A DNA stretch of 64,000 nucleotides from Niastella populi (GTDB taxonomy: Bacteria > Bacteroidota > Bacteroidia > Chitinophagales > Chitinophagaceae): contig NZ_LWBP01000194.1 in NCBI RefSeq assembly GCF_002078015.1, positions 1 through 64,000 on the forward strand, read 5' to 3'. The notes under the pieces were generated by a model that was given only the letters and a program-made list of their open reading frames with translations, did not search any database and had not been told where the DNA came from. Shown here in pieces: positions 12,687-61,955 of the stretch. How positions within the stretch are numbered: the first letter of the stretch is position 1; each line of letters begins with the position of its first letter. Position numbers and translations under genes: made by a program.

Positions 12687-12763
12687 GATTTTGGGATTTA
12701 GAGATTTGTTATTATGCTGAACCAAAAGAAATCTCAAAATCTCTAAATCTTAAATCAAAAATC
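12687..12763. repeat. Imperfect inverted repeat (GATTTAGAGATTT word)
   Basis: The left arm (12687-12707, with GGGATTTAGAGATTT) and the right arm (12729-12763, with AAATCTCAAAATCTCTAAATC) are inverse complementary with few mismatches. The element fills the gap between two co-directional genes, where it could fold in the transcript. The same word occurs again at 31867-31893. Confidence 0.7.
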
Positions 12764-12767
12764 CGTT

Positions 12768-15700
12768 TTACAACTTACAATTAATGCTCAACAGAAAACA
12801 AGTGCCGGATTGACTGAAGTGGGAACCATCGTACGTAGCTATATGGTAGCGGCCATTGAAGGTGACGGCATTGACATTTCGTCTTACCTCTCCGGGATCG
12901 TTCAATAATTCCCGGCCCGCATTATTCAAAGGCTTCAATACATACCGGGGCAAAACGTTGAAGATATTGTTTGCGGCAAAGGAAGCGCCCAGCCAGGGGG
13001 TGAACTGGTAACCTATATTGGCATCGGTGACCATTTTAGTTTGAAAGACCATTTTAATATTCTCATCAAGCCCTTCACTGCGAAATGTAGCCGGGCCGAA
13101 CAAAGTATTATTTACCGTCAGCGACCATTTATTGAGGATCAGATCACCGCCGAGGATCGCTTTGAATTTCGGGCGGCTGGTAAGCAGCAACGCTTCCTGC
13201 ATATAATCGAATATGGCCTGTCCGGCGTCATCGATCAGTTTGGGGTTCGATACCACTCCCAGCAAATTATTCGCAATGGTATAATTACCGGCCAGGTTGA
13301 TCGCCAGGCGGCCGGTGGTCATAACATGAATGTTCTTAAACGCGGCTACAAGATCGAGGCCCTGCGTATTGGTGCTGATGCCATTGGTAAAAAAACTTAC
13401 GCCAATGATCCCATTGGCGCTTAAAACAGCATCCAGCTGTGTATTCCTGTCTGGTGTATGTGTAATGTCTGAGCTCAGAATGATGCGGTCGCGGATCCTG
13501 ATATTATAATAGTCGAGGGTGAGGCTGAAGCGCTTCGATGGCCGCAAACCAAAACCCGCAGTAAAGTTTACAGACCGCTCTGGTTTCAACGCCGGTACAC
13601 CCAGCACCTGCGCCTGTGCGCTTTTGTTGCTCACAACGCCTTTTGATTGTACGCCCAGCCCCGGCGAAAAGATCTGCTGTACGATCTGCAGGTTAACCTG
13701 GTGCAGGCCGGGCGCCCTGAAACCGGTCGATACCGAAGAACGCAGCGTTAGCATGTCGCCGGCCAGTTTTTTCCGGCCACTTACCTTCCACACAAAAGCG
13801 CCGCCAAAATCATTGTAATATTCCTGCCGCGCCGTAGCATTGAGCAGCAGCGACCTGGAAACATCATAACTAACATCGAAGTAACCGCCAATATTGAACC
13901 GGCTCGATGTATTGGCATTTATATTGGAGATGCCTGAAAATGAAATAGGGCCCATCCCGGTGTAGGAGGCCCTGTCCCCTGCTATAATTGTAAAAATTTC
14001 ATTTCTGAATTCGGTACCGAAAGCGATCGATAATTTTTCATTCACCATATGGGTAACATCGGCGTTTCCTACCACATGATGAAAAGCGTAGCCGCCTGGC
14101 CGGAACGTGGTCGGACTGTTCTGGCCCATACTCGGGTTCCAGGTATTATCAACCGAATACAGTTGCCGGTTGCCCCCAACCGTAACACTGATATCGGAAG
14201 TCCATAATCCTTTCTCCTGTTTATACCCCAGCGTGGCATTGTAATCGTTCAGATCGCCGGCAAACGTAGGGCCGAAACCGAGATAGGTTGATGAGGTGTC
14301 GTGTAACAAATGCCAGGGGTCCTGTTTCCAGTAAGCCGTGCGGTAGTTGGCATAACTTTGAATGTTCTTGTATACATAAGCCGCGTTGGCATACACCGAG
14401 CCGTTGTTCTTTACCGGTATACCGGCATTTACCAGGAAGCGGGCAGCAGTAAGCGCCGGGGTGCCGTTTACGTTACGCGCATCGGGGAATTGTTCGAGGA
14501 ACGCTTTTACTTCCTCCAAACCGCCGGCCGTTCCATCACCCAGATCGAGATTATCCTGTTCAGCATCCACATTCCCCGGCCGGTTGGTGCGGTTCTCTTT
14601 TTGAAAATTGACGGTATAGTTAACAAAACCCCTGTCGCCGAAATTCACCCCGCTGTTGATGCTGGTGCCAATGGAAAATCCATCACCCTTACCTGTTATA
14701 CCTGTATTGGCTTTATAGCTGGTATATTCAAAACGGTCTTTTAAAATTATATTCATCACCCCGGCAATGGCATCGGAGCCATATTGGGCAGAAGCGCCAT
14801 CGCGCAGGATCTCCACGCGTTTGATGGCATCCATGGGAATGGCCGAAAGATCGGTTTCCGTTTCCCCGCGGCCGGGTGAGGTTTGAATATACACCAGCGA
14901 ACCGGGGTTCTTTCTTTTACCATTGATCAGGATCAGTGTGCGGCAGGGCCCCATATTCCTGATCTCATACGGATCGCTTAACGAAGTTGCGTCGTGCACC
15001 GGCATGTTCACCGTATTGAACGATGGGGCACGGAACTGTAAGGCCTTATCTAGCGTTAACTGACCGGTACTGAGCAGATCGGCGCCGTTGATATTATCAA
15101 CCGGCAACGAAGTATTGGTGAATGTACGTTGGGAAGCGCGGCTGCCCACAGCCACCACTACCCCGCTCAGATCGGTGACGGCATTGTTCAGCGTAACATC
15201 CTTTACCGCTGCCGCCCGCTGCATTTTTACCGTGGTCATATAACTGTTATACCCAACACTGCTGAAATACACTTTATGCGTTCCATTTTCCAGTGGCAGG
15301 CGGTAGCTGCCCTGTGCATCAGTCACCGTTCCCCGGGCAACGCCAATAACGATCACCGATACGCCCTGTACCGGTTCGTTCTTTACATTACGTACAGTGC
15401 CGATCAATAAATTGTGTTGTTTACCATCGGCTGAATCGGGGGTACCGGCATTTCCCTTATAGCGGCCGGGCGCTTCGGAGATGATGATCTGTGTGGGTGA
15501 TACTTTTTTAAAGGTTAGCCCGAACGGGGTAAGCAGGCTGCGCAATGCATTTTCCGCACTGTTTCCATCGCTGGTATCAGTAAGCACATTCTTGTTTTGT
15601 ACCAGTTGTTCGCGGTAAAGGATACTGATGCGGAATTTTCTTTCCAGTGCAGAAATTACGTCTTTTAAAGGCAGGCTGTTTTCAGCCGGATCAGTAAGCA

Positions 15701-15815
15701 GGGAAGAATTGCCGTTTTTGTCGTTCCGGACAATCCGCTGCCCGTACACGGCGTTTGCAGTGCATAGCGTTAAAATAAATGCAATAAGCCAATAATGATA
15801 CAGGCTTTTTCTCAT
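12768..15815 (-). CDS. TonB-dependent receptor with STN signalling domain
   Basis: The 1015-residue outer-membrane receptor has, in order, a signal peptide, an STN domain at about residues 45-105 (PLKDVISALERKFRISILYR ... LTFKKVSPTQIIIS), a carboxypeptidase-regulatory-like domain at about 140-220, a plug with VEILRDGASAQYGSDAIAGV, and a long beta-barrel ending FLLSINCKL. STN domains touch FecR and allow the receptor to signal to an ECF sigma factor. The fecR gene lies directly upstream (16030). It is a close paralogue of the receptor at 17921, which lacks the STN domain; the plug and barrel align over their length. I start at MRKSLYHYW, where the signal peptide begins. The ligand is unknown. 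Confidence 0.92.
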   Translation of the reverse strand: MRKSLYHYWLIAFILTLCTANAVYGQRIVRNDKNGNSSLLTDPAENSLPLKDVISALERKFRISILYREQLVQNKNVLTDTSDGNSAENALRSLLTPFGLTFKKVSPTQIIISEAPGRYKGNAGTPDSADGKQHNLLIGTVRNVKNEPVQGVSVIVIGVARGTVTDAQGSYRLPLENGTHKVYFSSVGYNSYMTTVKMQRAAAVKDVTLNNAVTDLSGVVVAVGSRASQRTFTNTSLPVDNINGADLLSTGQLTLDKALQFRAPSFNTVNMPVHDATSLSDPYEIRNMGPCRTLILINGKRKNPGSLVYIQTSPGRGETETDLSAIPMDAIKRVEILRDGASAQYGSDAIAGVMNIILKDRFEYTSYKANTGITGKGDGFSIGTSINSGVNFGDRGFVNYTVNFQKENRTNRPGNVDAEQDNLDLGDGTAGGLEEVKAFLEQFPDARNVNGTPALTAARFLVNAGIPVKNNGSVYANAAYVYKNIQSYANYRTAYWKQDPWHLLHDTSSTYLGFGPTFAGDLNDYNATLGYKQEKGLWTSDISVTVGGNRQLYSVDNTWNPSMGQNSPTTFRPGGYAFHHVVGNADVTHMVNEKLSIAFGTEFRNEIFTIIAGDRASYTGMGPISFSGISNINANTSSRFNIGGYFDVSYDVSRSLLLNATARQEYYNDFGGAFVWKVSGRKKLAGDMLTLRSSVSTGFRAPGLHQVNLQIVQQIFSPGLGVQSKGVVSNKSAQAQVLGVPALKPERSVNFTAGFGLRPSKRFSLTLDYYNIRIRDRIILSSDITHTPDRNTQLDAVLSANGIIGVSFFTNGISTNTQGLDLVAAFKNIHVMTTGRLAINLAGNYTIANNLLGVVSNPKLIDDAGQAIFDYMQEALLLTSRPKFKAILGGDLILNKWSLTVNNTLFGPATFRSEGLDENIKMVFQTKMVTDANIGYQFTPWLGASFAANNIFNVLPRYVLKPLNNAGRELLNDPGEVRRNVNAVTFNGRYHIATYDGSHFSQSGTCFLLSINCKL

Positions 15816-16029
15816 AATCCATAATATGCTCAAGGCTTAACGCTGAAGGCTTAATGCCTGCTCGTGAATTTCGTAAAGCTCGTTTTGCATCCTGCCGACA
15901 GTCTCAGAAAACAGAACGACAAAAAAACAGGCAAGGTTATGCGCTTTTGGCCTTCCGCGTTTAGCTTTTGGCCTTCCGCATTCCACCTTTAGCCTTCTGC
16001 CTTTAGCTTTCAGCCTTCAGCCTTCAGCT
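15816..16029. repeat. Word-repeat inverted element between receptor and fecR
   Basis: The left part has GCTTAACGCTGAAGGCTTAA and the right part (15950-16027) repeats GCCTTCAGCCTTCAGC, GCCTTCTGCCTTTAGC and similar words, which are the inverse complement in degenerate form. No coding frame is present. Confidence 0.65.
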
Positions 16030-17034
16030 CTATTCAATAATAATCTGATTTCCCTCCTTTGTAATTTTTGTTTTGAACAGTTCCCCCAGCACACTCAGCA
16101 TCACCTGTTCATTTTTCAACTCAAGCGTACCCGAAAACGTTTGTTTACCGAGGCTATCGTTGCGTACGATAAAGTCGTATCCATAATATGCCTGCAGTGT
16201 TTCACATACCTCTTTTACCGTAGTGTTCTCAAAACGGTATTTATGATCCATCCATGCGGTGAACAGACCGGGTTTGGCCACACGGGTAATTATTTTCCCC
16301 TGTGCTGCATCATAATAGCAATAATCGTTGGGCTGCATGATGGTTTCAGAGTGGGCGCCCGGAATGCTGAACCTTACCTTGCCTTCGCGTAACATCACTG
16401 TAGTGAAATGATTGATGCTTTTTACGTTGAACTCAGTGCCCAGCACTTCTATTTCTGCATTTTCGGCATGCACTTTAAAGGGCAGCGCTTTCCCATCATT
16501 TTCAATATGGCGAACCTTGAAAAACACCTCACCTGTGATCAACACCTCCCGAATTCCGCCAAAACGGCTTTTACTATACCTTACAGATGAATTGGCATTC
16601 AATACAACTTCTGTACTATCAGGCAACCAGGCCGTTTTAATAGCTGCATAGGGTGTAGAAATATAGGTATATGACGGTTTTCTTACATAATACAGTACCG
16701 CAGCACCGGTCAACAGACCCGCGACCACCGCGGCCGCTTTTATCCACCGGCCTGTAAACGACCTTATTTTGGCCGGGGCCGGTTGTGCCGTTGCAATCGT
16801 ACGATCTATCCGTTGTTTCAGGTTCACATAAAATTCTTCCGCAACTGTTTCCTTCTTAAAATCAAGGGAACGGATCATATCAATCGCTTTCTGTGCTGCT
16901 TCTCTTTTATCAGGATTGGCTTTCATCCATACGGTCCAGCTCTGGTTAGCCGGCGCACCGGGGTTCAACACCCAATTGATAAATGATTCATCCCGAAGAA
17001 AATCATTTACTTCGTATTGTTTGTATTTGTCCAT
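16030..17034 (-). CDS. FecR-type anti-sigma regulator
   Basis: The 334-residue protein has the usual plan: a cytoplasmic N-terminal part (NDFLRDESFINWVLNPG) that binds the sigma factor, one membrane span at about residues 93-115 (WIKAAAVVAGLLTGAAVLYY), a periplasmic FecR domain (TAWLPDSTEVVLNANSSVRY, TGEVFFKV, EVLGTEFNVKS, LREGKVRFSI), and a C-terminal STN-like DUF4974 domain (FENTTVKEVCETLQAYYGYD). It should hold an ECF sigma inactive until a substrate-loaded receptor with an STN domain signals; the receptor at 12768 is the obvious partner and the sigma at 20911 the likely target. The gene order is unusual because a receptor and an acetyltransferase gene separate it from the sigma gene. Confidence 0.9.
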   Translation of the reverse strand: MDKYKQYEVNDFLRDESFINWVLNPGAPANQSWTVWMKANPDKREAAQKAIDMIRSLDFKKETVAEEFYVNLKQRIDRTIATAQPAPAKIRSFTGRWIKAAAVVAGLLTGAAVLYYVRKPSYTYISTPYAAIKTAWLPDSTEVVLNANSSVRYSKSRFGGIREVLITGEVFFKVRHIENDGKALPFKVHAENAEIEVLGTEFNVKSINHFTTVMLREGKVRFSIPGAHSETIMQPNDYCYYDAAQGKIITRVAKPGLFTAWMDHKYRFENTTVKEVCETLQAYYGYDFIVRNDSLGKQTFSGTLELKNEQVMLSVLGELFKTKITKEGNQIIIE

Positions 17035-17085
17035 TTTTGTTTCTTAAGAATGCTGTCGTTTCCTCCGACAAACAAAGTAACAGTT

Positions 17086-17205
17086 TATGGTTTGTGGTTT
17101 ATGGTTTGTAGTTGCTGCCGCGCTTTCAGCCTTTTGGCAACTTGTAGGAAAGCCCGAAATGAATGAACTACAAACAACAAACCATAAACTACAAACTAAC
17201 TATTC
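17086..17205. repeat. Inverted word repeat (GGTTTATGGTTTG)
   Basis: Left arm about 17086-17113 (TTTATGGTTTGTGGTTTATG) faces right arm about 17163-17205 (AACAAACCATAAACTACAAA). The right arm continues to the stop codon of the acetyltransferase gene. The same word occurs at 23483, 25381, 28965, 53270 and 56000-56215. Confidence 0.7.
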
Positions 17206-17753: not shown

Positions 17754-17760
17754 AATAAAT

Positions 17761-17913
17761 ACGCTGAAAGCTCAAGGCTAAAAGCCGAAGGCCAAATACA
17801 AAATGCAGGATTTACCTACCGCTTTTCTACCGAAACCTCGCGAAAACGAAAACAGGAACCATTTACGAAACCCGCGAGTAAGCGTTCTGCCTTTAGCCTT
17901 AAGCCTTCTGCGT
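17761..17913. repeat. Long imperfect inverted repeat, 32-base arms
   Basis: Arms 17761-17792 and 17882-17913 are inverse complements at 26 of 32 positions by direct comparison. Both are built from words such as AAGGCTAAAAGCCGAAGG. The 89-base interior is not coding. The element fills the gap between the receptor and acetyltransferase genes. Confidence 0.75.
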
Positions 17914-17920
17914 CTTAAAA

Positions 17921-21528: not shown

Positions 21529-21963
21529 GAACTGTGTAAATTACCAGTGAAAATGCAGTGTACAAACTTACCGGTCTGGTAAATAGCCGCCTGTAATTTA
21601 ACAACAAAATACACTTCACCGACATTTGTAAATTATATATATGAACATTTTCATCGCCTATAATCCAGCTTTGGCCCATCATTTTCCGGTTTAGTCTGTT
21701 TTAAAAGAAAGGGCGCAGTCATACTAATGATGAATTACGTAGCTTAGATACAGCTAAACGCTTAACGCAGAACGCTTAACGCCTAAAGCCGCTAAAGGCC
21801 GAACGCTTAAGGCTTAACGCCTGCTCGCGACTAACGAGCCACGCCTGCTGATACAGCTTCGCGAGGTTTCAACAAGCAAGGTCTTCTGTTGGCTTTGTAT
21901 TTCGCCTTCAGCCTTATGCGTTCAGCATTCAGCACTCATGAGGCCCGCAAACAATAGCGATTT
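21529..21963. other. Divergent gap with word repeats
   Basis: The left third carries the sigma promoter candidate. From 21750 to 21940 the sequence consists of words such as CGCTTAACGC, CTAAAGCCG and, on the far side, GCCTTCAGCCTTATGCGTTC, which form a degenerate inverted pair around GCTCGCGACTAACGAGC. No gene is visible. Confidence 0.6.
21563..21570 (-). promoter_or_regulatory. Candidate -7 box of the ECF sigma gene
   Basis: Read leftward this is TAAGTTTG, matching TAnnTTTG, 35 bp upstream of the ATG at 21528. The -33 region has no clear TTTG. Confidence 0.45.
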
Positions 21964-22236
21964 ATGGCATTGGTAAAATTCACATATGCACTAAAAAGGT
22001 TCTTTCCAAAGCTTACCGATACCGAGGCAGGCGGGAAAACACTGCGGGCTGTCATCGATGAAATAGAGGCCCGTTACCCAGGCGTTACGCGGTATGTGTT
22101 AGACGACCAGGGCCGCCTGCGCCAGCATGTGAACATCTTTATCGACGGCGTTATGATCAAAGACCGTAATGCGCTTACCGACCCTTTCCGTGATAACAGC
22201 GAGATCTATATAATGCAGGCCCTGTCAGGTGGATAG
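21964..22236 (+). CDS. MoaD/ThiS-family ubiquitin-like protein ending in GG
   Basis: The 90-residue protein has the MoaD/ThiS beta-grasp fold: LVKFTYALKRFFPKL, GGKTLRAVIDEIEARYPGV, VNIFIDGVMIKDRNALTDPF and EIYIMQALSGG. The C-terminal diglycine is the site that ThiF/MoeB-type E1 enzymes adenylate for sulfur transfer or conjugation. No E1-like gene, moaE or thiamine gene is in the window, so the pathway is not given by context. The next gene, 156 bp on in the same direction, is a cytoplasmic Asp-box propeller; I recall this neighbourhood from other genomes, but the function of the pair is not established to my knowledge. Confidence 0.85.
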   Translation: MALVKFTYALKRFFPKLTDTEAGGKTLRAVIDEIEARYPGVTRYVLDDQGRLRQHVNIFIDGVMIKDRNALTDPFRDNSEIYIMQALSGG

Positions 22237-22237
22237 A

Positions 22238-22392
22238 ATATCGAATATCCAATGTCCAATGCAGAAGGCTGAAGGAAATACAGAAGAGCGAAATGGGGGC
22301 TGGATTCACTTCGACGTTCAAAATTATACGGTTTTAAATTGTATTCACTTCGACATTCAACTTCTTCTGTTCAACATTCAATATTATTTATA
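22238..22392. repeat. Inverted word repeat (AATATTGAATGTCGAA)
   Basis: The left part (AATATCGAATATCCAATGTC) and the right part (CTTCTGTTCAACATTCAATA) are inverse complements in degenerate form. The element lies between two co-directional genes. The same words are used at 32584-32689 and 42755-42790. Confidence 0.65.
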
Positions 22393-23475: not shown

Positions 23476-23796
23476 AGAAAATGTTTATGGTTTATAGTTT
23501 GTGGTTTATGGTTCATTAAACCCTGTATGCTGATCTTTATGATACCTCCCGATTTTCGGGAATAACAATAAACTATAAACCATAAACTATAAACCAACAA
23601 CTTCCTCGTATCTCCCATGTTCAACATACTTCCCCATGTAACAGAATGAGCTCATTGAATTGCACTCCCAGCTCAACCTCCCTCCGCTGCAAAATATAAT
23701 TAGCATGCTTAATCCTGAACCAGTTATGCCTTTCTATAAAAAGGTTATCCACATTCCGTAGGGTGGCACTATCCTTTAGGTACATATATAAGTAGT
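23476..23796. other. Gap with inverted word repeat and fecR leader
   Basis: At 23483-23518 GTTTATGGTTTATAGTTTGT and at 23567-23600 ATAAACTATAAACCATAAAC are inverse complements in degenerate form and could form a terminator-like structure behind the propeller gene. The rest up to the fecR start at 23797 shows no gene. Confidence 0.6.
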
Positions 23797-25023
23797 ATGT
23801 ACAAGCAATCGTTTTTCAGCTTATTGGATAAATACCAGGATGGAACTGCCAGCGCTGCGGAAAAAGCGCTGATAGAAGAATATTATCGCCGGATGGAAAT
23901 GGCTGGCAGTACCGAACTAACTGCCGAAGAAGAAACCGCTTTAAAAGAAGCGATGTATCAACAGATCTCGGCTAATGTATGGGAGCCCGGCACAAAGGTG
24001 ATACCCATCAAAAGAAACCGTTACGGTATGGCCGCAGCGGCGGCGGTATTGCTAACGATGATCGGCGCAGGCAGCTATTTCTTCTTGCTGAAGAAACCCG
24101 ATGCCAGGCCAATGCAGCCGGAAACAGCGAAAACAAAACCGAGAGACCTGCCGCCGGGGCGCGATGCAGCAGTGCTTACACTGGCTGATGGCCGCACTGT
24201 TATTCTCGACTCGGCCAGCGGCACCATTTCACAACAGGGCGGCGCAACGGTGATCAATATAAAAGGAATGGTTTCATACTCCTCCCCCTCCACCGGCGGG
24301 GGCCGGGCGGAAGCGGCCGTTGTATATAATAAAGTAAGCACAGCGCGCGGCAACCAGTATCAGCTGGTGTTGGCCGACGGGTCGAAAGTATGGCTGAACT
24401 CCGCGAGCTCGCTTCGCTTTCCCACCTCATTCACCGGTGACCGGCGCGAAGTGGAACTGGATGGGGAAGGTTATTTCGAGATTGCCAAAAACGCCGCCAA
24501 ACCATTTCATGTAAAAACACAAACACAGGATGTGGAAGTGCTGGGCACACACTTCAATGTGAATGCATACAGTGATGAAACCTCGGTAAAGACCACGTTG
24601 CTTGAAGGATCGGTGAGGGTAAGCCAATCGGCAATCGGTCACACCTTAAAGCGGGAGCAATCGGCAAAGGAGTCCGGGCATTCAGCAGTCTTAAAACCGG
24701 GCGAGCAGGCTGTACTGTCGCGAACCCACTCATCACTCACCACTCCCTATTCACCATTCACCATCGACCATTCACCAGATATCGATCAGGTAATGGCATG
24801 GAAGAATGGCTGGTTCGAATTCGAAAAAACAGATATCAGAACGATCATGCGCCAGATAAGCAGATGGTACGACGTAGATATCCGGTATGAAACAAAAATA
24901 AACGATGAAACATACGGTGGAAGGATCAGCAGAAATTTAAATCTTTCCAGTATTCTTAAGATGTTGGAGAATTACGGTGTTCATTTTAAGCTGGAAGGAA
25001 AAACGTTGACAGTAATTAGATAA
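23797..25023 (+). CDS. FecR-type anti-sigma regulator with low-complexity inserts
   Basis: The 408-residue protein has an N-terminal cytoplasmic part (LLDKYQDGTASAAEKALIEE), one membrane span at about residues 77-97 (AAAAVLLTMIGAGSYFFLL), a FecR domain (GNQYQLVLADGSKVWLNSAS, EGYFEIAKNAAKPFHV, VEVLGTHFNVNAY) and a C-terminal STN-like domain (FEFEKTDIRTIMRQISRWYD). At about residues 310-327 an insert reads HSSLTTPYSPFTIDHSPD; its DNA (24725-24777) is made of the word TTCACCA, like the intergenic repeats here. A shorter insert, SSPSTGGGRAEA, lies near residue 165. The gene precedes susC and susD and should regulate them with the sigma factor at 31282. Confidence 0.9.
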   Translation: MYKQSFFSLLDKYQDGTASAAEKALIEEYYRRMEMAGSTELTAEEETALKEAMYQQISANVWEPGTKVIPIKRNRYGMAAAAAVLLTMIGAGSYFFLLKKPDARPMQPETAKTKPRDLPPGRDAAVLTLADGRTVILDSASGTISQQGGATVINIKGMVSYSSPSTGGGRAEAAVVYNKVSTARGNQYQLVLADGSKVWLNSASSLRFPTSFTGDRREVELDGEGYFEIAKNAAKPFHVKTQTQDVEVLGTHFNVNAYSDETSVKTTLLEGSVRVSQSAIGHTLKREQSAKESGHSAVLKPGEQAVLSRTHSSLTTPYSPFTIDHSPDIDQVMAWKNGWFEFEKTDIRTIMRQISRWYDVDIRYETKINDETYGGRISRNLNLSSILKMLENYGVHFKLEGKTLTVIR

Positions 25024-25125
25024 TGTGATGATTCGACAATGTGATAATGCTTACATTTTGTGAACGCCGACTTTAATCGAGCCTCTTGAATTGCGAATTA
25101 TCACATTATCATATCATCGAATTAA
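25022..25125. repeat. Inverted word repeat (GTGATAAT)
   Basis: Left arm ATTCGACAATGTGATAAT (25030-25047) and right arm ATTATCACATTATCATATC (near 25097-25115, followed by ATCGAAT) are inverse complements with few differences. It starts at the fecR stop codon and could act as a terminator-like hairpin. Confidence 0.65.
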
Positions 25126-28943: not shown

Positions 28944-28964
28944 CTATTAAATATAAAGTAACAG

Positions 28965-29112
28965 TTTATGGTTTATTGTTGGTGGTTTATTTATTCGGTC
29001 ATTCATTATTATTCTCAAGCTCGCGAAAGCTGAACAATGGTAATCTCGAATTAGCAGCGAAGCTGCAAGTCGCGGCAGCAACCACAAACAACAAACCACA
29101 AACAACAAACTA
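28965..29112. repeat. Inverted word repeat between susC and susD
   Basis: GTTTATGGTTTATTGTTGG at 28965 faces CAACAAACCACAAACAACAA near 29087-29108, inverse complementary in degenerate form. It fills the whole gap between the two genes of the importer pair. Confidence 0.65.
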
Positions 29113-29127
29113 ACTAATAATACCACA

Positions 29128-30742: not shown

Positions 30743-30788
30743 GTTGACTTGCTGACGAGTTAACTAGTTAACTCGTCAACAAGTTAAC
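30743..30788. repeat. Palindrome behind susD
   Basis: GACGAGTTAACT and AGTTAACTCGTC (30754-30777) form a perfect 24-base palindrome, extended on both sides by GTTGACTTGCT and AACAAGTTAAC at 9 of 11 positions. It begins five bases after the susD stop. The same words recur at 61910-61955. Confidence 0.75.
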
Positions 30789-31928: not shown

Positions 31929-32579
31929 ATGAACAAACAACAAATCATTGAAGCAACTATAAAACACGTACAGGACACACTTAAAGACGCCGAAGGCGGG
32001 CACGACTGGTGGCATATTCATCGTGTATGGAAAACAGCGCAACTGATCGCCGCCGCAGAACATGCCGATGAACTGGTGGTTTCGCTGGGCGCCCTGCTGC
32101 ACGACATTGCCGATTCAAAGTTCCATAATGGCGATGAAACGATCGGCCCGCGTATGGCCCGCGAATGGCTGGTATCACTGGGCGTGGAAGAAAGCGTAAT
32201 AGCCCATGTTGAAAATATAATCACCCACATCTCTTTCAAAGGCGGCAATCACCAGCAGGCTTTTAAATCGAAAGAACTCGATATTGTGCAGGATGCCGAC
32301 CGCCTCGACGCACTTGGCGCCATTGGTATTGCCCGCGCATTTAATTACGGTGGATTTAAGAACCGGCCCCTGTATGATCCGGCCGTTCCACCCAATCTCG
32401 CCATGAACAAGGAACAATACAAGAATAACCAGGCGCCTACCATCAATCATTTTTATGAGAAGTTGCTGTTGTTAAAAGACAGGATGAATACGGAGACGGG
32501 GAAAAATTTAGCTATCCAACGGCATGAATTTATGGAAGGTTATCTTAAACAGTTTTATTATGAGTGGAACGCAGAGTAA
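31929..32579 (+). CDS. HD-domain phosphohydrolase (YedJ-like)
   Basis: The 216-residue protein has the HD metal-binding pattern: HDWWHIHRVWKTA supplies the first His, LGALLHDIAD the HD pair near residue 58, and IVQDADRLDALGAIGIARAF the distal Asp. This arrangement is typical of the small YedJ/YpgQ group of nucleotide phosphohydrolases. It is cytoplasmic and stands 53 bp behind the sigma gene, separated by a GATTTAGAGATTTTAGATTT word repeat, so cotranscription is possible but not required. The substrate is unknown. Confidence 0.87.
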   Translation: MNKQQIIEATIKHVQDTLKDAEGGHDWWHIHRVWKTAQLIAAAEHADELVVSLGALLHDIADSKFHNGDETIGPRMAREWLVSLGVEESVIAHVENIITHISFKGGNHQQAFKSKELDIVQDADRLDALGAIGIARAFNYGGFKNRPLYDPAVPPNLAMNKEQYKNNQAPTINHFYEKLLLLKDRMNTETGKNLAIQRHEFMEGYLKQFYYEWNAE

Positions 32580-32583
32580 TATT

Positions 32584-32689
32584 GAATATTGAACCGAAGA
32601 ATGTTGAATGTCGAAGTAAATACAGTCCCGATCTTAAAATTTGTATTTCACTTCTACATTCAACATTGAGCATTCGACATTCAATATTC
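32584..32689. repeat. Inverted word repeat between convergent genes
   Basis: Left arm 32584-32624 (GAATATTGAACCGAAGAATG ...) and right arm 32642-32689 (ending CGACATTCAATATTC) are inverse complements in degenerate form over about 40 bases. It could serve as a bidirectional terminator for the HD gene and surE. Confidence 0.7.
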
Positions 32690-34428: not shown

Positions 34429-34461
34429 AAGTGTGTCACGTTTTGGAAACGTGGCACACTT
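34429..34461 (+). terminator. Hairpin directly behind the lipid kinase gene
   Basis: AAGTGTGTCACGTTT and AAACGTGGCACACTT pair over 15 positions (one G-T) with a TGG loop, starting 3 bp after the stop. A weak TAAATTT tail follows. It shares the core GTGGCACACTT with the palindromes at 35152 and 60208. Confidence 0.65.
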
Positions 34462-35151: not shown

Positions 35152-35188
35152 ACAGATGTGCCACACTTTTAACGTGTGGCACATCTGT
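35152..35188. repeat. Perfect 15-bp palindrome (GTGCCACAC family)
   Basis: ACAGATGTGCCACAC and GTGTGGCACATCTGT are perfect inverse complements with a TTTTAAC loop. Variants lie at 34429 and 60208. Confidence 0.75.
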
Positions 35189-36357: not shown

Positions 36358-37030
36358 GTTTGGTTGAGTTTTAAAGTGTAATAAAAGCTGGTACCATGCT
36401 ATGGCAAGCACAGATAAAGACAATAGTCTTCGAAGGAACAAAAATTTATATGGATCCGGATGGATAAGGTGCGCGGTAAGAGCTACATTTACGGAGAGTG
36501 CTATTGTTTTTTCTAAAGCGGGGAGAATAATCTCATCTATTCACTGTAATGAAGACCATAACAGTGAAGCTACGTTTAAAACCTGCCAAGGATTGGGTTA
36601 TTGATCAAGCAATGAATCGGTTGGACTGTTAATTTAAAGATAACGTATTTTATACATTATTCCCACCGCATCCATAATTTTTTTTACGAATTCGTTTTGC
36701 AATCGGTAATGCGTTTTACAAAGAGATTAGTGATTATCGCTTTTCAGGTAAGACACGGAAGGGAAATGCAAAGTTGCATCATTTCATTTTTTTTATCATC
36801 CTGAACTGTTATGTTTGAACAGCTATAAAAAGCATTTTTCAGGCTGTATCGAATAGGCTGAACGCTGAACGCTAAAAGCTTAACGCCAGCCCCCGAAATG
36901 CGTTCTTCCCGAATAATTTCATAAGGACCGGATGCGGGATTTTGCATTCTGCGTTTTGCGTTTTGCATTCTGCGTTTTGTGTTTTGCCTTCAGCCTTTGG
37001 CGTTTTGCCTTCAGCCTTTGGCGTTTTGCG
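36358..37030. other. Gene-free 670-bp gap with word repeats
   Basis: The left half is the upstream region of the receiver-CRP gene; I see no clear promoter pair. A small ATGCAA/TTGCAT hairpin with a following T8 run lies at 36763-36796. From 36850 to 37030 the words AACGCTGAACGCTAAAAGC and, inverted, TTTTGCCTTCAGCCTTTGGC fill the sequence. A segment around 36895-36925 (CCCGAAATGCGTT, AATAATTTC) has a near copy at 31099-31126. Confidence 0.55.
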
Positions 37031-39859: not shown

Positions 39860-40053
39860 AGGGATAATCTTCAGCCGCAAGTTACGCCATAGCCGCTGAA
39901 AGCGAAATACTTCAGCAATCAGTCATTGCGTAATAGGTATTTATCACTATTGAAGAAAGCAGGTTGCAGAAAACGGCAGGAGCAACAGGCAATAAAAACC
40001 AGGCAAAGGGCAAGGGGGAACTGGCAAAGGATAATGCAAAAGCTTCTTTGCAG

Positions 40054-42289: not shown

Positions 42290-42736
42290 ATGCAGCGCGA
42301 ACCAACGACGATATTATATATAGATGACGACCAGGATGATCTGCTGATATTTGAAGAATCTGTATGCTCGCTGTATCCTCACGTCAGGCTTTACAAAGCG
42401 CAAAGCAGTGAAGCAGGGATCAACATCCTGAATCAACTGGAGAGAGAGCGAAAGCCATTCCCATCGCTGATCATGATCGATATGAATATGCCGAAGATGA
42501 ATGGCCGTGAAACCCTGCAGCATATTCGAAGCAACCGGAAATGGCGCGATATACCGGTGGCCATTTTCACCACTTCTGCCAATAATGATGATATAGAATT
42601 TTGCAGGCACTTCGGCTCAGCCTGTATCACCAAACCGATGAGTTATGCGGATTATAGCGCTACGCTGCAGCGGTTGTTTAATCATATACCGGGCGACCCC
42701 TTGAGGGGAGAATTAAAAATGAGGAATGAGGAATGA
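42290..42736 (+). CDS. Single-domain response regulator
   Basis: The 148-residue protein is a receiver domain alone: ILYIDDDQDDLLIFEES supplies the acidic pocket, Asp64 in SLIMIDMNMPKMNG is the phosphoacceptor, and SACITKPMSYADY has the conserved Lys. There is no output domain, so it acts by protein contact or in a phosphorelay. No kinase gene is adjacent. The C-terminal residues ELKMRNEE come from an AATGAGGAATGAGG word repeat, so the true domain ends about ten residues earlier. I start at MQREPTT; the upstream TTG adds seven residues of no known role. Confidence 0.88.
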   Translation: MQREPTTILYIDDDQDDLLIFEESVCSLYPHVRLYKAQSSEAGINILNQLERERKPFPSLIMIDMNMPKMNGRETLQHIRSNRKWRDIPVAIFTTSANNDDIEFCRHFGSACITKPMSYADYSATLQRLFNHIPGDPLRGELKMRNEE

Positions 42737-42737
42737 G

Positions 42738-42970
42738 TAGAACGCAAAACAGAAGAATGTCGAATGGCCAATTTCCAATGTCGAAGTGTTGAATACAGGA
42801 AAAGCGGCATTTGCGTGTAGCGTGTAGCTTGAAGCTTGCAGCATGAAGCTTGTAGCTGCATTTTGTATTCGCTTTCGGCTTTTATCTTTCGCCTTTCGCC
42901 CTGTATTTGTTTTCGCTTACAGCTTGCAGCTTACAGCTTACCGCTTCCAGCTTGCAGCTGCATTTTTACA
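42738..42970. repeat. Word-repeat stretch (AAGCTTGCAGC)
   Basis: Between the response regulator and the GH106 gene the sequence consists of words such as GTAGCTTGAAGCTTGCAGC and CTTACAGCTTGCAGC, which are partly self-complementary, and an AATGTCGAA word at 42755-42790. The right part reaches the stop codon of the GH106 gene. Confidence 0.7.
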
Positions 42971-42972
42971 AC

Positions 42973-45900: not shown

Positions 45901-46017
45901 CGGAGCAACCCCGGCAAACGGTTCCCGTTCATCGATCCATTGGGTTAGTCCGCTTTTTGCTGCGGCTAACAGCAAACCGGTAAGGGAACCAAGTGTTATG
46001 AATTTTCGCCTATCCAT
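42973..46017 (-). CDS. GH106-type glycoside hydrolase (alpha-L-rhamnosidase family)
   Basis: The 1014-residue protein begins MDRRKFITLGSLTGLLLAAA, an N-terminal signal with a twin-arginine motif. The mature part has GCYWWWFNGLVDKEGITRDL, then MGVNMSSGWCMGGPWIPPQH, DDSFEDGFPNWTENI and GYDPTPYLPVL, all typical of the GH106 group, and ends with a beta-sandwich containing ATYIKHFDAGGIQAGKSYFL. Characterised GH106 enzymes release L-rhamnose from glycans and pectic side chains. It is probably periplasmic. It follows the glycerophosphodiesterase gene in the same direction but is separated from it by 174 bp that include an 8-bp tandem repeat. Confidence 0.85.
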   Translation of the reverse strand: MDRRKFITLGSLTGLLLAAAKSGLTQWIDEREPFAGVAPAFRALKEKFPAPGQPFQAGCYWWWFNGLVDKEGITRDLEEFKAKGMGEVLMINSAGGLGGAKVPQGALFLSPEWRELYRHALKEANRLGLKMGVNMSSGWCMGGPWIPPQHACRWFLQSKITVTGPQKFSGKLPLPGNRDGYDNLVNAPGWKEYIDLPLEQIDYRDTAIVAIPAGADKNPLRTGKRAALFPAKTNRKDASNFIKANDVMTPVATPWEIMPGDVPVAPESVIDLTGKTGADGQLDWDVPAGEWTIIRTGHRMTGSKVMIAQPEASGLSVDWLSHTGVDLQFENLGKILLQEAGDLAGKTLTYLCDDSFEDGFPNWTENIISQFKKYRGYDPTPYLPVLNGYIIGSVEQSDRFLNDYRKTVADCLADEHYKHFAGLCHKHGLQVQNEAAGPSRSGTMCMDALKNLGRSDMPQGEFWLGGKHDEEGGLDEKLGYGMVRLEKGQNKVTKMVASAAHIYGKKTVSAESFTSFRHWYDYPGNMKQAADRAFCEGVNRFLIHTSTATRLQDGKPGIEYGAGTHFNPNVTWWNQAGAFLDYLSRCQYLLQQGLFVADVLYYNGDVTPNIVLPKHVDPSLGKGYDYDVCNEEVLLTRVSVKYGRLVLPDGMSYRLLVLPENTSMPVPVMQKIKELVFAGATVVGPKPEKDSGLNNFPQCDVRVKEMAGAVWGKCDGKNVKHQVYGKGKVYWNIPLKAILKEKGIGPDFICDNENAFIDFIHRSAGDTDIYFVANRNNRDEKAECRFRVTGKTPELWDAVTGETGKIVNAISKDGYTQIDLQFAPFQSWFIVFNKTGLQKPARGGAKNNAANFPVLTPVQELTGAWKVHFDTEWGGPATVEFEKLEDWTKRPEENIKYYSGRATYIKHFDAGGIQAGKSYFLETGVVRNIAELTLNGKKLGILWTAPWRAEVTGLLKPSGNVLEIVVVNCWPNRLIGDAALPLEKRLTRTNITFKKDAQLMASGLLGPVVISESK

Positions 46018-46030
46018 TTTATATACTGAG

Positions 46031-46117
46031 TTGTTCAGTTGTTCAGTTGTTCAGTTGTTCAGTTGTTCAGTTGTTCAGTTGTTCAGTTGTTCAGTTGTTC
46101 AGTTGTTCAGTTGTTCA
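46031..46117. repeat. 8-bp tandem repeat (TTGTTCAG), about 11 copies
   Basis: The unit TTGTTCAG repeats without interruption from 46031 to 46117, about 10.9 perfect copies, ending 14 bp before the start codon of the GH106 gene. The number of copies is likely to vary by slippage and would shift promoter or leader spacing. Three copies of the same unit lie near 61845-61870. Confidence 0.95.
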
Positions 46118-46191
46118 AACTCGCTACTAATAGCGAGTCAGTGAAATTGATGAACTCAATAACTCATAAACTGAATAACAGAACAACTGTT

Positions 46192-51815: not shown

Positions 51816-51938
51816 CGTGAAACGGCAAACGTGAAACGTGAAAGGGTTCGCGAAATTTGGGAATTATTTACAACCTTACGCCGCCCGAAATTCGAGCCGC
51901 TTGCCGACGTAGGCCGCGCTGAGGTTTGCCGTTTCACG
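51816..51938. repeat. Inverted repeat with 15-base perfect arms
   Basis: CGTGAAACGGCAAAC (51816-51830) and GTTTGCCGTTTCACG (51924-51938) are exact inverse complements, with a second, shorter copy of the same word on each side. The interior, 51841-51920, is not coding. It separates the permease and dehydrogenase genes of one operon and may stabilise or stop the permease transcript. Confidence 0.75.
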
Positions 51939-51955
51939 TCTGCCGTTTCACGCCA

Positions 51956-53254: not shown

Positions 53255-53930
53255 CGGAGTTAGTTTATTGTTTTTGGTTTATGGTTTATGGTTCTTATGT
53301 TCGAAACTCGAAACTAAATGGCAGGCTCGCTTCTTTTGGTTTATGGTTTATTGTTTTTTGTTTATTGTTCTTTTTATGCGAAGCTTCCGACTGTATTCTA
53401 AATTCATTTCGGCTTGAAGCTTTCGGCTTTCACCTGTATTCACTTGCAGCTTACAGCTTGAAGCTTGCAGCTGTTTTCTGTATTCACTTGCAGCTTACAG
53501 CTTGAAGCTTGTAGCTGTATTCTGTATTCACTTTCGGCTTGAAGCTTTCGGCTTTCACCTGTATTTGCTTGCAGCTTACAGCTTACAGCTTGAAGCTGTT
53601 TTCTGTATTCACTTGCAGCTTACAGCTTGAAGCTTACAGCTGTTTTCATGTGTCAAATCGCTTTAAATTTGTTTAATATGCTAAAATCAACCCGCGATTA
53701 TTAGTTATTGACAGCCGTTACAGGAAAAAAGTACCAGACATCCTTATAAAAAGTTGCATGAAGGATGCTATTCAGCCTTGGAACGAGGTACAACCTGGCA
53801 CTAAAGTAAAGAAAATTCACACCAATTAAACAAAATTAAATACAAATTAATACTTTTAAACCTAAAATTAAACCTCTTTAAGCATACAAACGATTACCGG
53901 AATATTATTTCTGGTTAAAAATTTAAACCA

Positions 53931-53977: not shown

Positions 53978-54058
53978 GGATTTCGGAATTGCGGGATTTT
54001 GAGCTTTCAAGATGAGCTGCAACTGGTTAAAACCCGAAATCGCGAAATCACTAAATCA
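53978..54058. repeat. Inverted word repeat in the regulator leader
   Basis: GGATTTCGGAATTGCGGGAT near 53978 and CCCGAAATCGCGAAATCACT near 54031 are inverse complements in degenerate form and would fold in the leader of the regulator mRNA just before the ATG at 54065. Confidence 0.6.
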
Positions 54059-54064
54059 GCACCA

Positions 54065-54829: not shown

Positions 54830-54864
54830 TTCACAGTTCTCAGTTCACAGTTCTCAGTTCACAG
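54830..54864. repeat. 7-bp tandem repeat (TTCWCAG), five units
   Basis: Starting at the first base after the stop codon of the regulator gene, TTCACAG and TTCTCAG alternate for five units. It may also act as a 3' untranslated element. Confidence 0.8.
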
Positions 54865-54882
54865 TCCATGCATGAACCGGGC

Positions 54883-55823: not shown

Positions 55824-56236
55824 TATTTAATACGGTCTAAATAAATAATTCCTTTACAGGGGGGTCGGATGCGGCTTTCAAAATTCAATCGGAGATATTA
55901 ATGCAGCATTGGAGGGCCAAATATAAATGTTTAAACAACACTAACCTCAACAATTATCCGGTCCAATAAAGGTTCATGGTTTCTGGGGAAGATGGGTTGG
56001 GTTTATGGTTACCATAGTTTGCCGCCAGAAATAACGGAGCTCAAACCTCCTGCTGTTAATTTTGAAATCCGAACTGAAAACCACAAACCAAAAACTACAA
56101 ACCACAAACCAAAAACGGGCTTTTAACAACCTGTTACAATTTGAAAATTAATCACTTACCACCTACCCAGCCTTTCAAACCGGTGAACAGGCCATAAACT
56201 AAAAACCATAAACGATAAACTGATTATTTTTGCCGG
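55824..56236. other. Divergent gap with word repeats
   Basis: From 55990 to 56215 the sequence is built from GGTTTATGGTT-like words (TTTATGGTTACCATAGTTT) and, towards the helicase gene, their inverse complement (ACCACAAACCAAAAACTACA, AAACCATAAACGATAAAC). No gene and no clear promoter pair is seen. Confidence 0.55.
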
Positions 56237-58141: not shown

Positions 58142-58259
58142 AATACAGCCCCAAGCTGCAAGCCAAATACAGCCTAAAGCTGAAAGCCTAAGGCCGAAAG
58201 CTAAATACAGCTGCACGCTGCAAGCAACTACAGGAATACAGCTGCAAGCGTATTCCACG
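58142..58259. repeat. Word-repeat stretch (CAAGC/GCTGAAAGC)
   Basis: AATACAGC words with GCTGCAAGC and GCTGAAAGCC alternate after the helicase stop codon. They are the inverse complement of the words at 42820-42960 and 53400-53640. Confidence 0.65.
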
Positions 58260-58315
58260 TTGCCTTTTTGCCTTGTTGCCTTGTTGCCTTTTTGCCTTGT
58301 TGCCTTGTTGCCTCG
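58260..58315. repeat. 8-bp tandem repeat (TTGCCTTG), seven copies
   Basis: Seven head-to-tail units of TTGCCTTG or TTGCCTTT (last unit TTGCCTCG) end three bases before the stop codon of the ABC transporter gene. The unit length equals that of the TTGTTCAG tract at 46031. Confidence 0.9.
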
Positions 58316-58318
58316 TTA

Positions 58319-60142: not shown

Positions 60143-60207
60143 TCATAAATATTAGGGAGTCTCAGAGGTCAACAAAATACACCAAAAAAAGTTCACCCGG
60201 CGACGAA

Positions 60208-60239
60208 AGATGTGCCACACTTCGAAGTGCGGCACATCT
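60208..60239. repeat. Palindrome of the GTGCCACAC family
   Basis: AGATGTGCCACACTT and AAGTGCGGCACATCT pair at 14 of 15 positions with a CG loop. It lies 65 bp upstream of the ABC gene and 97 bp upstream of the SDR gene. Related palindromes lie at 34429 and 35152. Confidence 0.75.
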
Positions 60240-60247
60240 AAAATTTA

Positions 60248-60280
60248 TTTGGAACATTCATTCCGATATACATACATTTG
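60248..60280 (+). promoter_or_regulatory. Promoter of SDR-TetR pair
   Basis: TTTG at 60248-60251 and TACATTTG at 60273-60280 are separated by 21 bp, an excellent match to the Bacteroidota -33/-7 consensus. The -33 box touches the GGAACATTCATTCC site and the -7 box is followed by the palindrome at 60284. Confidence 0.7.
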
Positions 60281-60283
60281 TAC

Positions 60284-60299
60284 CGGAATGATCATTCCG
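60284..60299. promoter_or_regulatory. Operator palindrome CGGAATGATCATTCCG
   Basis: A perfect 16-base palindrome lies at the predicted transcription start of the SDR gene. The related GGAACATTCATTCC lies at 60251-60264 and GGAACGGGAATTCC at 61103-61116, next to the TetR gene. All share GGAA-N5-ATTCC. This is the spacing and symmetry expected for a TetR dimer. Confidence 0.6.
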
Positions 60300-60336
60300 T
60301 TATTATTCAAATCAAACAATTCTCAATCTATCAACC

Positions 60337-61086
60337 ATGAGTCGTTTAAAAAATAAAACCGCCCTTATTACCGGCGGCAACAGCGGAATTGGCCTGGCCA
60401 CAGCCAAAGAATTTCTTGAACAGGGCGCCAATGTTATCATTACCGGCCGCAGTGCGGCAGCGCTTGAAAAGGCTAAGAAGGAGTTGAACGGACAGGTGCA
60501 CACCATATTATCGAACGCCGGCAACCTGAACGATATTCGCAGCCTCGCCAAAGAAGTACAACAGATCACCCCGCATCTCGACGTATTATTTGTAAATGCC
60601 GGCATAGGAAAGTTCGCACCGGTTGAGGCAGTAACTGAAGAACATTTTGACGAGCAGTTCAACACCAACGTAAAAGGCGCCTTCTTCACCATTCAGCAAT
60701 TATTACCGGTGATCAAAGACGGCGGTTCCATCATCCTCAATACATCGGTAGCAGCCCACATGGGTATGGCCAGTTCTTCTATTTATTCAGCAACGAAAGC
60801 GGCGCTGCTCAACCTGGCGCGAACATTATCGACAGAACTGTTGCCCCGGAAGATCAGGGTAAATGCGATCAGTCCCGGCCCCATCGCTACGCCTATATTA
60901 GATAAAACCGGATTAACGGCCGAACAGGTTGAAGGCTTTAAATCGTCTATCCAGACACAGGTGCCTATCGGCCGTATGGGCGATCCGTCTGAAATTGCCA
61001 AAGTTGCCACCTTCTTCGCTTCCGATGATTCCTCGTTCGTACTGGGTACCGAGCTCATTGCCGACGGCGGAATGGTAACTTTATAA
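60337..61086 (+). CDS. SDR family oxidoreductase
   Basis: The 249-residue protein is a classical short-chain dehydrogenase/reductase: cofactor-binding TGGNSGIGLA near residue 13, FVNAGIG around 88, catalytic Ser in IILNTSVAAHMG, YSATK (Tyr and Lys) near 152, and ISPGPIATPIL. The Arg in ITGRSAAALEK after strand 2 suggests NADP rather than NAD. The substrate is unknown. It is transcribed ahead of the TetR gene, 41 bp apart, with a strong promoter and operator site upstream. Confidence 0.9.
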   Translation: MSRLKNKTALITGGNSGIGLATAKEFLEQGANVIITGRSAAALEKAKKELNGQVHTILSNAGNLNDIRSLAKEVQQITPHLDVLFVNAGIGKFAPVEAVTEEHFDEQFNTNVKGAFFTIQQLLPVIKDGGSIILNTSVAAHMGMASSSIYSATKAALLNLARTLSTELLPRKIRVNAISPGPIATPILDKTGLTAEQVEGFKSSIQTQVPIGRMGDPSEIAKVATFFASDDSSFVLGTELIADGGMVTL

Positions 61087-61102
61087 AAATTGTGGTAATT
61101 TT

Positions 61103-61116
61103 GGAACGGGAATTCC
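61103..61116. promoter_or_regulatory. Second TetR operator candidate
   Basis: GGAACGGGAATTCC shares GGAA-N5-ATTCC with the palindrome at 60284. It overlaps the end of a TAATTTTG box at 61096-61103, 12 bp before the TetR ATG, so an internal promoter under self-control is plausible. Confidence 0.5.
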
Positions 61117-61127
61117 AATTTAACGCA

Positions 61128-61712
61128 ATGCCAAAGACAAAACAGTTTGACGAAACGGAAGTGCTGGTAAAAGCCAGGGAGGTTTTTAGTGTAAAAGGAT
61201 ACAACGGTACTTCGATGGACGACCTGGTTAACGCCACCGGTTTAAGCCGTTCGAGCATCTACGATACTTTCGGTGATAAACATGGCCTGTTTTTGAAAAG
61301 CCTGAGCCATTATTGCACGTCCCAGGGGGATGAACTGCAAAACCTATGCGCCAAAACCGACAGTCCGAAGAAAAAGATCCGCGCCATTTTCGATTATACC
61401 TTAAAAAGCATCCTCACCGATAAAGAACGGAAGGGTTGCCTGATGGTGAATGTGAGCATGGAACTGAACGCGGTGGACAGGGACGTGGCGGCTATTTCGC
61501 TTGCGAACATGGAAGATATGGAGCAAACGTTCAGCGCCCTGGTAAAAGAAGGCCAGGCCAAAGGGGAAATTTCGAAAAAGTTCTCCCCGAAAGCATTGGG
61601 CCGGTTGTTGTACAGCAATCTGATGGGGCTTCGCGTAAGCGGTATGAACCGTCCCGAACCCGATGCACTGAAGGAGATCGTCAAACTCGCGCTCTCGATA
61701 CTCGATGAGTAA
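61128..61712 (+). CDS. TetR/AcrR-family transcription regulator
   Basis: The 194-residue protein has the TetR N-terminal helix-turn-helix (VLVKAREVFSVKGYNGTSMD, DLVNATGLSRSSIYDTFGDK) and a C-terminal ligand domain with KGCLMVNVSMELNAVDRDVA of the TetR_C group typical for YcdC-like proteins. I take the ATG at 61128, since the GTG at 61092 would place the operator inside the coding region. It should repress the SDR gene and itself through the GGAA-N5-ATTCC sites. The inducer is unknown. A terminator-like hairpin follows at 61785. Confidence 0.9.
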   Translation: MPKTKQFDETEVLVKAREVFSVKGYNGTSMDDLVNATGLSRSSIYDTFGDKHGLFLKSLSHYCTSQGDELQNLCAKTDSPKKKIRAIFDYTLKSILTDKERKGCLMVNVSMELNAVDRDVAAISLANMEDMEQTFSALVKEGQAKGEISKKFSPKALGRLLYSNLMGLRVSGMNRPEPDALKEIVKLALSILDE

Positions 61713-61784
61713 CGCTGAACGCAAATACCTGATATTCCAGGCATACTTTGTTTTCAAATACCTCGCGATCGGAGGTAAACATAC

Positions 61785-61840
61785 AAAAACGCTTAACGTT
61801 GACAGTTTCCCTTCGGAAGCAATTCGCGTTAAGCGTTTTT
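61785..61840. terminator. Bidirectional terminator
   Basis: AAAAACGCTTAACG (61785-61798) and CGTTAAGCGTTTTT (61827-61840) are perfect inverse complements with an inner TTCC/GGAA hairpin. It lies between the converging TetR and histidine kinase genes. Confidence 0.7.
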
Positions 61841-61844
61841 TAGT

Positions 61845-61955
61845 TGTTCAGTTGTTCAGTTGTTCAGTTGCCGGCGTGCCTACTCCGACCTCATCGGGGT
61901 AGTTCTGTTAACCAGTCAACCCGTCAACTCGTTAACCAGTCAACCCGTCAACTCC
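61845..61955. repeat. Word repeats (TTGTTCAG, then GTTAACCAGTCAACC)
   Basis: Three TTGTTCAG units are followed by GTTAACCAGTCAACCCGTCA words, degenerate copies of the palindromic sequence at 30743. The stretch ends at the stop codon of the histidine kinase gene. Confidence 0.7.

Follow-up and report, generated by a model that had tools for sequence, protein, structure and literature searches.

Heptamer repeats were known in bacteria before the present work, and the number seven has no accepted reason. The STRR repeats of heterocystous cyanobacteria have a unit of 7 nucleotides (nt) and are not known to form inverted pairs. In Xanthomonas, repeats of the heptamer GGGAATC are described as "convergent" (PMC4692102), a term which suggests that the G-rich strand reads inwards there; the same source also refers to tandem heptanucleotides in Calothrix. 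In Beggiatoaceae, cyanobacteria and five Bacteroidetes, TAACTGA repeats also form intergenic heptamer arrays, and some gaps of the TAACTGA-bearing Bacteroidetes contain other heptamers too (PMC4679880). High-copy extragenic hairpins are likewise represented by the repetitive extragenic palindromic (REP) elements, the GTAG and CGTC palindromes and the TIRYT-associated repeats (PMC3733652). Heptamer repeats and convergent pairs are thus already known from other bacteria. Here we describe intergenic word elements in a stretch of 64,000 nt of Niastella populi (positions 1 to 64,000 of contig NZ_LWBP01000194.1, hereafter the window), contig C193 of an 8.6-Mb genome. Many gene ends in this bacterial genus bear hairpin-shaped DNA made of imperfectly repeated 7- or 8-letter words. 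Among the titles and abstracts listed in searches of the open literature, which did not extend to subscription papers, none described inverse heptamer elements for Niastella or Chitinophagaceae.

Word arrays and hairpins at gene junctions

Besides the window, the sample comprised a further 800 kb of the same genome, 200 kb each of the congeners G005 and G009, and syntenic stretches from a further five congeners, so that eight genomes of the genus were covered (G007 and G008 were left out of this stretch sample). Gene ends were taken from our own open reading frame (ORF) caller, with no annotation used, and junction length limits were set for each analysis (minimum 30-40 nt, maximum 600-2000 nt). 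A first-pass annotation of the window had reported word repeats in at least 15 gaps, usually as two opposed arms. Indeed, an array (score at least 9) was present in 21 of the 36 window junctions of at least 40 nt, a hairpin scoring at least 14 in 16, and an array together with a hairpin score of at least 12 in 15. All ten intervals listed in that annotation contain word repeats, and in nine of them the best ungapped inverted pair exceeded all 200 dinucleotide shuffles. At 22238-22392, the ungapped inverted pair was not significant (equalled by 62 of 200 shuffles); the heptamer array of this interval exceeded all 100 shuffles. Array scores were weak at 17761-17913 and 25022-25125, being reached by 1 and 2 of 100 shuffles, respectively. 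When the ten intervals were folded against 60 shuffled controls, the z values of the RNA minimum free energy ranged from -1.1 (22238) to -9.7 (23483). The proposal that the elements belong to one class is supported as regards their architecture. Of 480 own-genome junctions, 76 had a hairpin scoring at least 14, whereas two shuffled sets contained no such hairpin. With Rfam at gathering thresholds, the single match in the window was a tRNA (6266-6340), and no described RNA family matched the elements.

Repeated words are present as annotated, with the correction that their unit length is almost exclusively 7 or 8 nt. Among arrays scoring at least 11 in the 480 junctions, 105 had lag 7, 43 had lag 8 and 92 had lag 14, a harmonic; the remaining lags accounted for 0 to 8 arrays each, and one shuffled set gave 0 to 2. 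Base-match probability in noncoding DNA peaked at distances of 7, 8, 14, 21 and, weakly, 16, while the rise at 7 or 8 was absent from coding DNA. The median number of units per array was 4.7 for heptamers and 4.6 for octamers, and elements measured about 60-160 nt, as judged by inspection.

The arms have a preferred polarity. In arrays starting at most 20 nt after a stop codon, the G-rich strand read inwards in 57 cases against 9 in the own genome, and in 42 against 6 in the congeners. Among the matches listed in other genomes for a single word (at least 115 loci), 19 had an inverse arm on the downstream side and none had one on the upstream side. The elements have terminal inverted repeats, as do miniature inverted-repeat transposable elements (MITEs), and are high-copy, extragenic, imperfect palindromes like REP elements. 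They share the 7-nt unit of heptanucleotide simple repeats, although 8-nt periods occur too, but lack their near-perfect iteration: in arrays of 4-12 units, an average of 12-23% of adjacent units were identical. Near-perfect iteration is confined to a few long arrays, one of which, with tens of GGAAGGC heptamers at G000:C253:270785-271435 (locus L172), lies 3' of a gene end.

Word families and the pairing of their arms

The first-pass annotation had given each element its own word. Instead, words recur genome-wide, and 27 greedy families of at least two members hold 244 of the 277 arrays from the eight genomes. Greedy families replaced single-linkage clustering, in which 183 and 55 of the 277 arrays were chained into two clusters. 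With the element at 17086-17205 as query, 104 matched pieces were retrieved from its own genome, often several per site. The core of this family, W1, is AAGCGCGGCAGCAAC; allowing at most one mismatch, it gave 34 matches in the own genome, 27 in G003 and 0-7 in eight other genus genomes (none in G009), compared with 0-1 for a backward-read control. Nine of the 34 own-genome matches are in tandem at two contig ends (G000:C196:71740-72782 and C197:37-298), five times at a spacing of 168 bases. Two W1 arms were present at 43 of the 50 loci retrieved by the core rather than by the arms. For a GTTNCAG query, with only 40 candidates scored per genome and several pieces per site in places, the matched pieces numbered 42 for G005, 38 for G009 and 5 for G004. 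Thus, families are high-copy within a genome, one of them has a common sub-terminal motif, and different families are abundant in different species of the genus.

Array density was 6-39 per 100 kb in stretches of the eight genus genomes, compared with 4 arrays in 380 kb of 19 other genomes (about 1 per 100 kb). The latter were represented by a 20-kb stretch each, nine being chosen for holding W1 words; a G025 stretch of 1720 nt was dropped. In Escherichia coli, 50 kb contained no array. Density also differed sixfold between stretches, from 6.0 to 39.1 per 100 kb (contig C253 of the own genome against C89 and the window). GTTTATG was considered as a phylum-wide signature and rejected: four units occurred in 12 of 394 other genomes, compared with 5 of 395 for the backward-read control, so that its recurrence outside the genus is sporadic. 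Apparently another family, hairpins of GTTTATAG heptamers that enclose GATGATTAC or the inverse of it, was seen at L046, L086, L111 and L144 (and at L107 and L109); among the matches listed, the named records were Prevotella/Prevotellaceae and Bacteroidales metagenome-assembled genomes.

Compensation between the arms, which had been proposed as the means by which structure is kept, was unsupported both in an arm-swap test and in orthologous comparison. In 38 W1 elements with 24-nt arms in fixed register, the two arms of one element matched at 19.55 of 24 positions, against 20.01 for arms swapped between elements (P(swapped >= within) 0.9988). A within-element match as low as this was reached by only 0.18% of permutations, and the gapped form of the test, with 43 elements, gave a concordant result. 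Identities were equal for left-left (20.1), right-right (20.1) and left-right (20.0) comparisons. The arms of one element are therefore uncoupled in the W1 family tested. The arm analysis left out L224 (coding region) and L226 and L236 (arms of other words), and L234 was omitted from the swap and target-site tests. L226 and L236 have the W1 core at what seem to be orthologous junctions, one in G001 and one in G005, and the G001 arms are other words.

Orthologous arms were compared in non-independent pairs from 8 species and six extra locus pairs; "array" is here a property of the junction, and a few best hairpins are not built of words. At an arm identity of at least 0.8, 28 orthologous junction pairs provided 595 Watson-Crick pairs with 92 one-sided changes, 17 to G-U and 30 to A-C. 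Two-sided changes numbered 3, against 4.0 expected, and 2 of them were still paired. The same test on 22 array-free junction pairs gave 20 G-U and 7 A-C changes, indicating that it can detect RNA-type selection. On the sense strand, G-U and A-C in array hairpins were not significantly different (50 against 39, p 0.29), while array-free hairpins had 29 against 15 (p 0.049). Pairing upheld by compensatory or G-U changes, the mark of a structured RNA or intrinsic terminator, was not found in these array hairpins.

Placement and turnover at gene junctions

Pooled over the eight genomes, array starts lay within 5 nt of a stop codon in 59 of 152 junctions, against 17.5 expected under uniform placement; the far array end was not drawn to start codons (8 against 8.4 expected). 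Among the matches listed in other genomes, the array started between -15 and +19 of the upstream stop at 28 of 51 loci. TAG stops were enriched ahead of the stop-anchored arrays (22 of 59, p 0.005), and in several cases array and stop codon overlap; at some junctions the stop may thus have come with the element. Hairpins scoring at least 14 were richest in convergent junctions (24 of 82), followed by co-directional (46 of 308) and divergent ones (6 of 90; p 1e-4). Of 30 W1 elements with gene context, some mutually orthologous, 15 were convergent, 14 co-directional and 1 divergent (20 short W1 loci lacking gene context were excluded from this count). The side of the W1 core relative to the gene was 7:7, both orientations being equal.

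The earlier proposal that structure is kept while sequence turns over held in part. The word does often differ between species; conserved presence is doubtful, the association being weak. Among 31 orthologous pairs in which both junctions have a hairpin and some periodicity, 13 had no common word, 14 had one and 4 were intermediate, by cut-offs of our own at which 12 of 82 mismatched pairs also attain the "share" level. Presence at orthologous junctions gave odds ratios of 1.6 (co-directional; nominal p 0.03, non-independent pairs), 1.05 (convergent) and 0.87 (divergent). With so weak a correlation between species, dense independent gain would be expected to yield a large part of the "same place, other word" pattern.

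Two junctions illustrate the turnover. At 28944-29127, between a TonB-dependent receptor gene and a SusD-like gene, W1-type words are found in the window, G002, G003 and G006, other words in G001 and G009, and no element in G004 and G005. In G009, a GTTACAG element of the GTTNCAG type lies between the outer flank TAAAGAAACAG, which is kept, and an outermost AACAACAAAC piece that resembles the W1 arms found in G002, G003, G006 and the window. When this element served as query, all but 6 of the non-self matches listed ended before or at the edge of the AACAACAAAC piece (position at most 89 of 107). The word would thus appear to have been exchanged in place in G009. At 45976-46191, there are octamers with three different words in the window, in G004 and in G005/G009, and heptamers in G006.

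Word elements of the window (positions are those of the 64,000-nt stretch)
Positions	Strand	Words	Arms and context
12687-12749	unstranded	octamer GATTTAGA	arms 12687-12710 / 12726-12749
15834-16028	unstranded	heptamer GCTTAAC / GCCTTCA	arms round a loop; adjoins stop codon of FecR gene (16030-17034, - strand)
17086-17205	unstranded	W1, GTTTRTD heptamers	arms 17090-17113 / 17173-17196; core AAGCGCGGCAGCAAC, - strand, 17111-17125
17761-17913	unstranded	heptamer, GCTGAAG type	arms 17761-17792 / 17882-17913
21752-21940	unstranded	heptamer GCTTAAC / GCTGAAC	divergent gap
22235-22376	unstranded	heptamer GAATATC arrays	no significant ungapped hairpin; begins within stop codon of upstream gene
23483-23600	unstranded	W1 type	arms 23488-23517 / 23567-23596
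25020-25125	unstranded	octamer GATAATGT	arms 25027-25048 / 25097-25118
28960-29118	unstranded	W1	between TonB-dependent receptor gene and SusD-like gene
30743-30788	unstranded	octamer GTTAACTC	arms 30743-30763 / 30768-30788
32577-32689	unstranded	heptamer GAATATT/GAATGTC	fills convergent gap
36858-37040	unstranded	heptamer GCTGAAC / GCGTTTT	overlaps end of - strand gene 37031-39880
42720-42972	unstranded	composite of GAATGTC, AGCTTGC and GCTTTCG heptamer arrays	convergent gap
46030-46187	unstranded	octamer	(GTTGTTCA)n in left arm, GTTATTGA-like right arm
51816-51950	unstranded	heptamer CGTGAAA / CGGCAAA	
53260-53645	unstranded	composite of GTTTATG and AGCTTGC heptamer arrays	AATACA-like separators
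53978-54058	unstranded	octamer GATTTCGG	arms 53979-53999 / 54029-54049; overlaps start of ORF called at 53999
54830-54866	+	heptamer GTTCACA/GTTCTCA	single-arm array; begins at stop codon
55990-56225	unstranded	W1-like heptamer arrays	divergent gap
58142-58318	unstranded	GCTGCAA heptamers and TTGCCTTG octamers	convergent gap
61705-61957	unstranded	AACGCTTAACG hairpin, GTTGTTCA octamers, GTTAACC octamers	ends at stop codon

The composites at 53260-53645, 42720-42972 and 58142-58230 contain AATACA / AAATACAG words between their arrays. A separate hairpin motif, GTGCCACACTT...AAGTGTGGCAC, which is not a word array, occurs in three gaps (34429-34461, 35158-35182 and 60212-60235); it gave 7 pattern matches with at most one mismatch, against 2.9 expected.

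Origin of the elements and comparison with known repeats

With moderate confidence, we read the elements as dispersed families of REP/MITE-like extragenic hairpins with arms of 7- or 8-nt words, which accumulate after stop codons and undergo gain, loss or exchange between species. A family would spread by copying, either through transposition in trans or through gene conversion between look-alike elements. An element would survive where neither a promoter nor a coding sequence suffers, which would explain the accumulation after stop codons. The complementarity of the arms would be inherited from the founding element and would later decay, and near-perfect palindromes and identical neighbouring units would be purged as unstable. 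In W1 and GTTNCAG, the word and its inward polarity persist, but exact pairing does not, nor does the loop in GTTNCAG; this fits dispersed repeats that were complementary at birth and have been kept in permissive space after stop codons. An RNA function is not needed to explain the data, and side effects on transcript ends are likely.

Several observations weigh against this reading. It leaves unexplained why the unit is 7 or 8 nt in every family. No target-site duplication was detected round W1 (n = 43, p 0.15), the element ends being fuzzy. The Y1 tyrosine transposase, the only transposase family sought, was tried as a partner and had no clear link with the elements in the loci read. One strong copy of a Y1_Tnp (Y1, IS200-like) gene is present in each of 10 genus genomes. 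At all four of the loci L248-L251 its neighbours are a gene of chorismate-mutase type and one of aroB type; three of these loci have a word element upstream and none has one downstream within 500 nt, all as judged by eye. A second, weaker copy in the own genome had no two-armed element visible by eye and a short GTTAACAA-like piece downstream. Moreover, the loops of ten GTTNCAG copies were unrelated (0.347 against 0.308 shuffled, p 0.30; two of the 12 loci, partial matches, were left out), while their left arms were alike (0.73). This counts against copying of whole units, since copying predicts like loops unless loops decay fast. Some W1 copies stand at the same site in several species (e.g. 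L222, L241 and L237), so that part of the W1 set is old and stable. Finally, at a looser arm identity of 0.65, two-sided changes exceeded expectation (42 against 26.8, with G-U 53 and A-C 59), 11 of them being still paired (26%, close to the third expected by chance), and other alignment settings gave 49 against 31.8, with 18 still paired. This excess may come from replaced or mis-registered words; a weak coupling of the arms may also exist.

The unrelated loops and like arms of GTTNCAG are also the best hint that something stranger than whole-element copying may take place. A trans-acting activity might write or copy inverse 7-/8-nt arrays around post-stop sequence, so that arms and not loops spread, with a current vocabulary in each genome and old words overwritten; to this scenario we would give little probability. 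Birth of each element on the spot, by slippage favouring 7-8 nt, strand switching that creates the inverse arm, and biased mutation that yields identical words, is unlikely, though somewhat less so. It would account for the unrelated loops and for the restriction of periods to 7 and 8, and heptamers are indeed over-represented among bacterial simple repeats (PMC4692102 and PMC4679880, citing a 2007 study). Some arrays have become homogeneous, among them (GTTGTTCA)n at 46030, which has the look of a recent expansion, and these also point that way. Yet one word occurs at dozens of sites in one genome and at few in others, W1 elements have a common core motif, and the arms are uncoupled. The simple local slippage suggested in the first-pass annotation meets a further difficulty in the order of units. 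In 102 heptamer arrays of 4-6 units, the fraction of identical units was 0.116 for adjacent units and 0.227 for units two apart (p 5e-4). The direction was the same in 32 octamer arrays (0.133 against 0.212, p 0.05) and among W1 units (45 of 207 adjacent against 49 of 150 two apart, p 0.03); in longer arrays the two were not significantly different. Plain duplication predicts the reverse, and unit-duplication slippage is therefore disfavoured.

We regard it as improbable that selection acts on the elements as RNA structures, with compensatory change preserving the shape of terminators or 3'-end protectors. Their location directly 3' of stop codons and the enrichment of hairpins in convergent and their scarcity in divergent junctions agree with such a role, and sense-strand folding was stronger in 47 co-directional array junctions (mean z -2.7) than in 180 others (-1.5). 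Classical terminators were also somewhat rarer where arrays are present (convergent, 15 of 32 against 43 of 73; co-directional, 17 of 80 against 91 of 326), but replacement was not significant (p 0.29 and 0.26, respectively), a result that speaks neither for nor against a terminator role. Against it stand the lack of a significant G-U excess in array hairpins when array-free hairpins have one, the absence of G-U bias in orthologues at identity 0.8, the slightly better pairing of swapped arms, and the missing receptor/SusD-like gap element in two congeners. Arrays of binding sites for a nucleoid, termination or transposase protein, with the fixed letters as site and the free letters as spacers, would suit the inward polarity. 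They would also suit the near-random behaviour of the two free letters between neighbouring W1 units (identical 0.217, against 0.230 expected; 360 units chosen by the pattern GTTT[AG]T[AGT], whose fixed letters are hence given by construction). However, to recognise about 27 words would take either a large set of proteins or a single, very unspecific one, and we consider this explanation very unlikely.

Altogether, the presence of hairpins at one gene junction in several species does not by itself mean that an RNA structure is conserved. A genus with many word families, fixed polarity, anchoring to stop codons and words that differ between species at the same sites should allow slippage, conversion and mobility to be distinguished. 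In comparison with the REP and TIRYT-associated repeats (PMC3733652), the Niastella arms are tandem words, and no clear association with the tyrosine transposase gene of the genus was seen. The TAACTGA repeats, in the main genome, lie mostly just 5' of start codons and are direct rather than inverted, one word having been studied (PMC4679880). The Xanthomonas GGGAATC repeats consist of one word that forms G-quadruplexes (PMC4692102), whereas Niastella has about 27 words, periods of both 7 and 8, starts at stop codons and words that differ between species.

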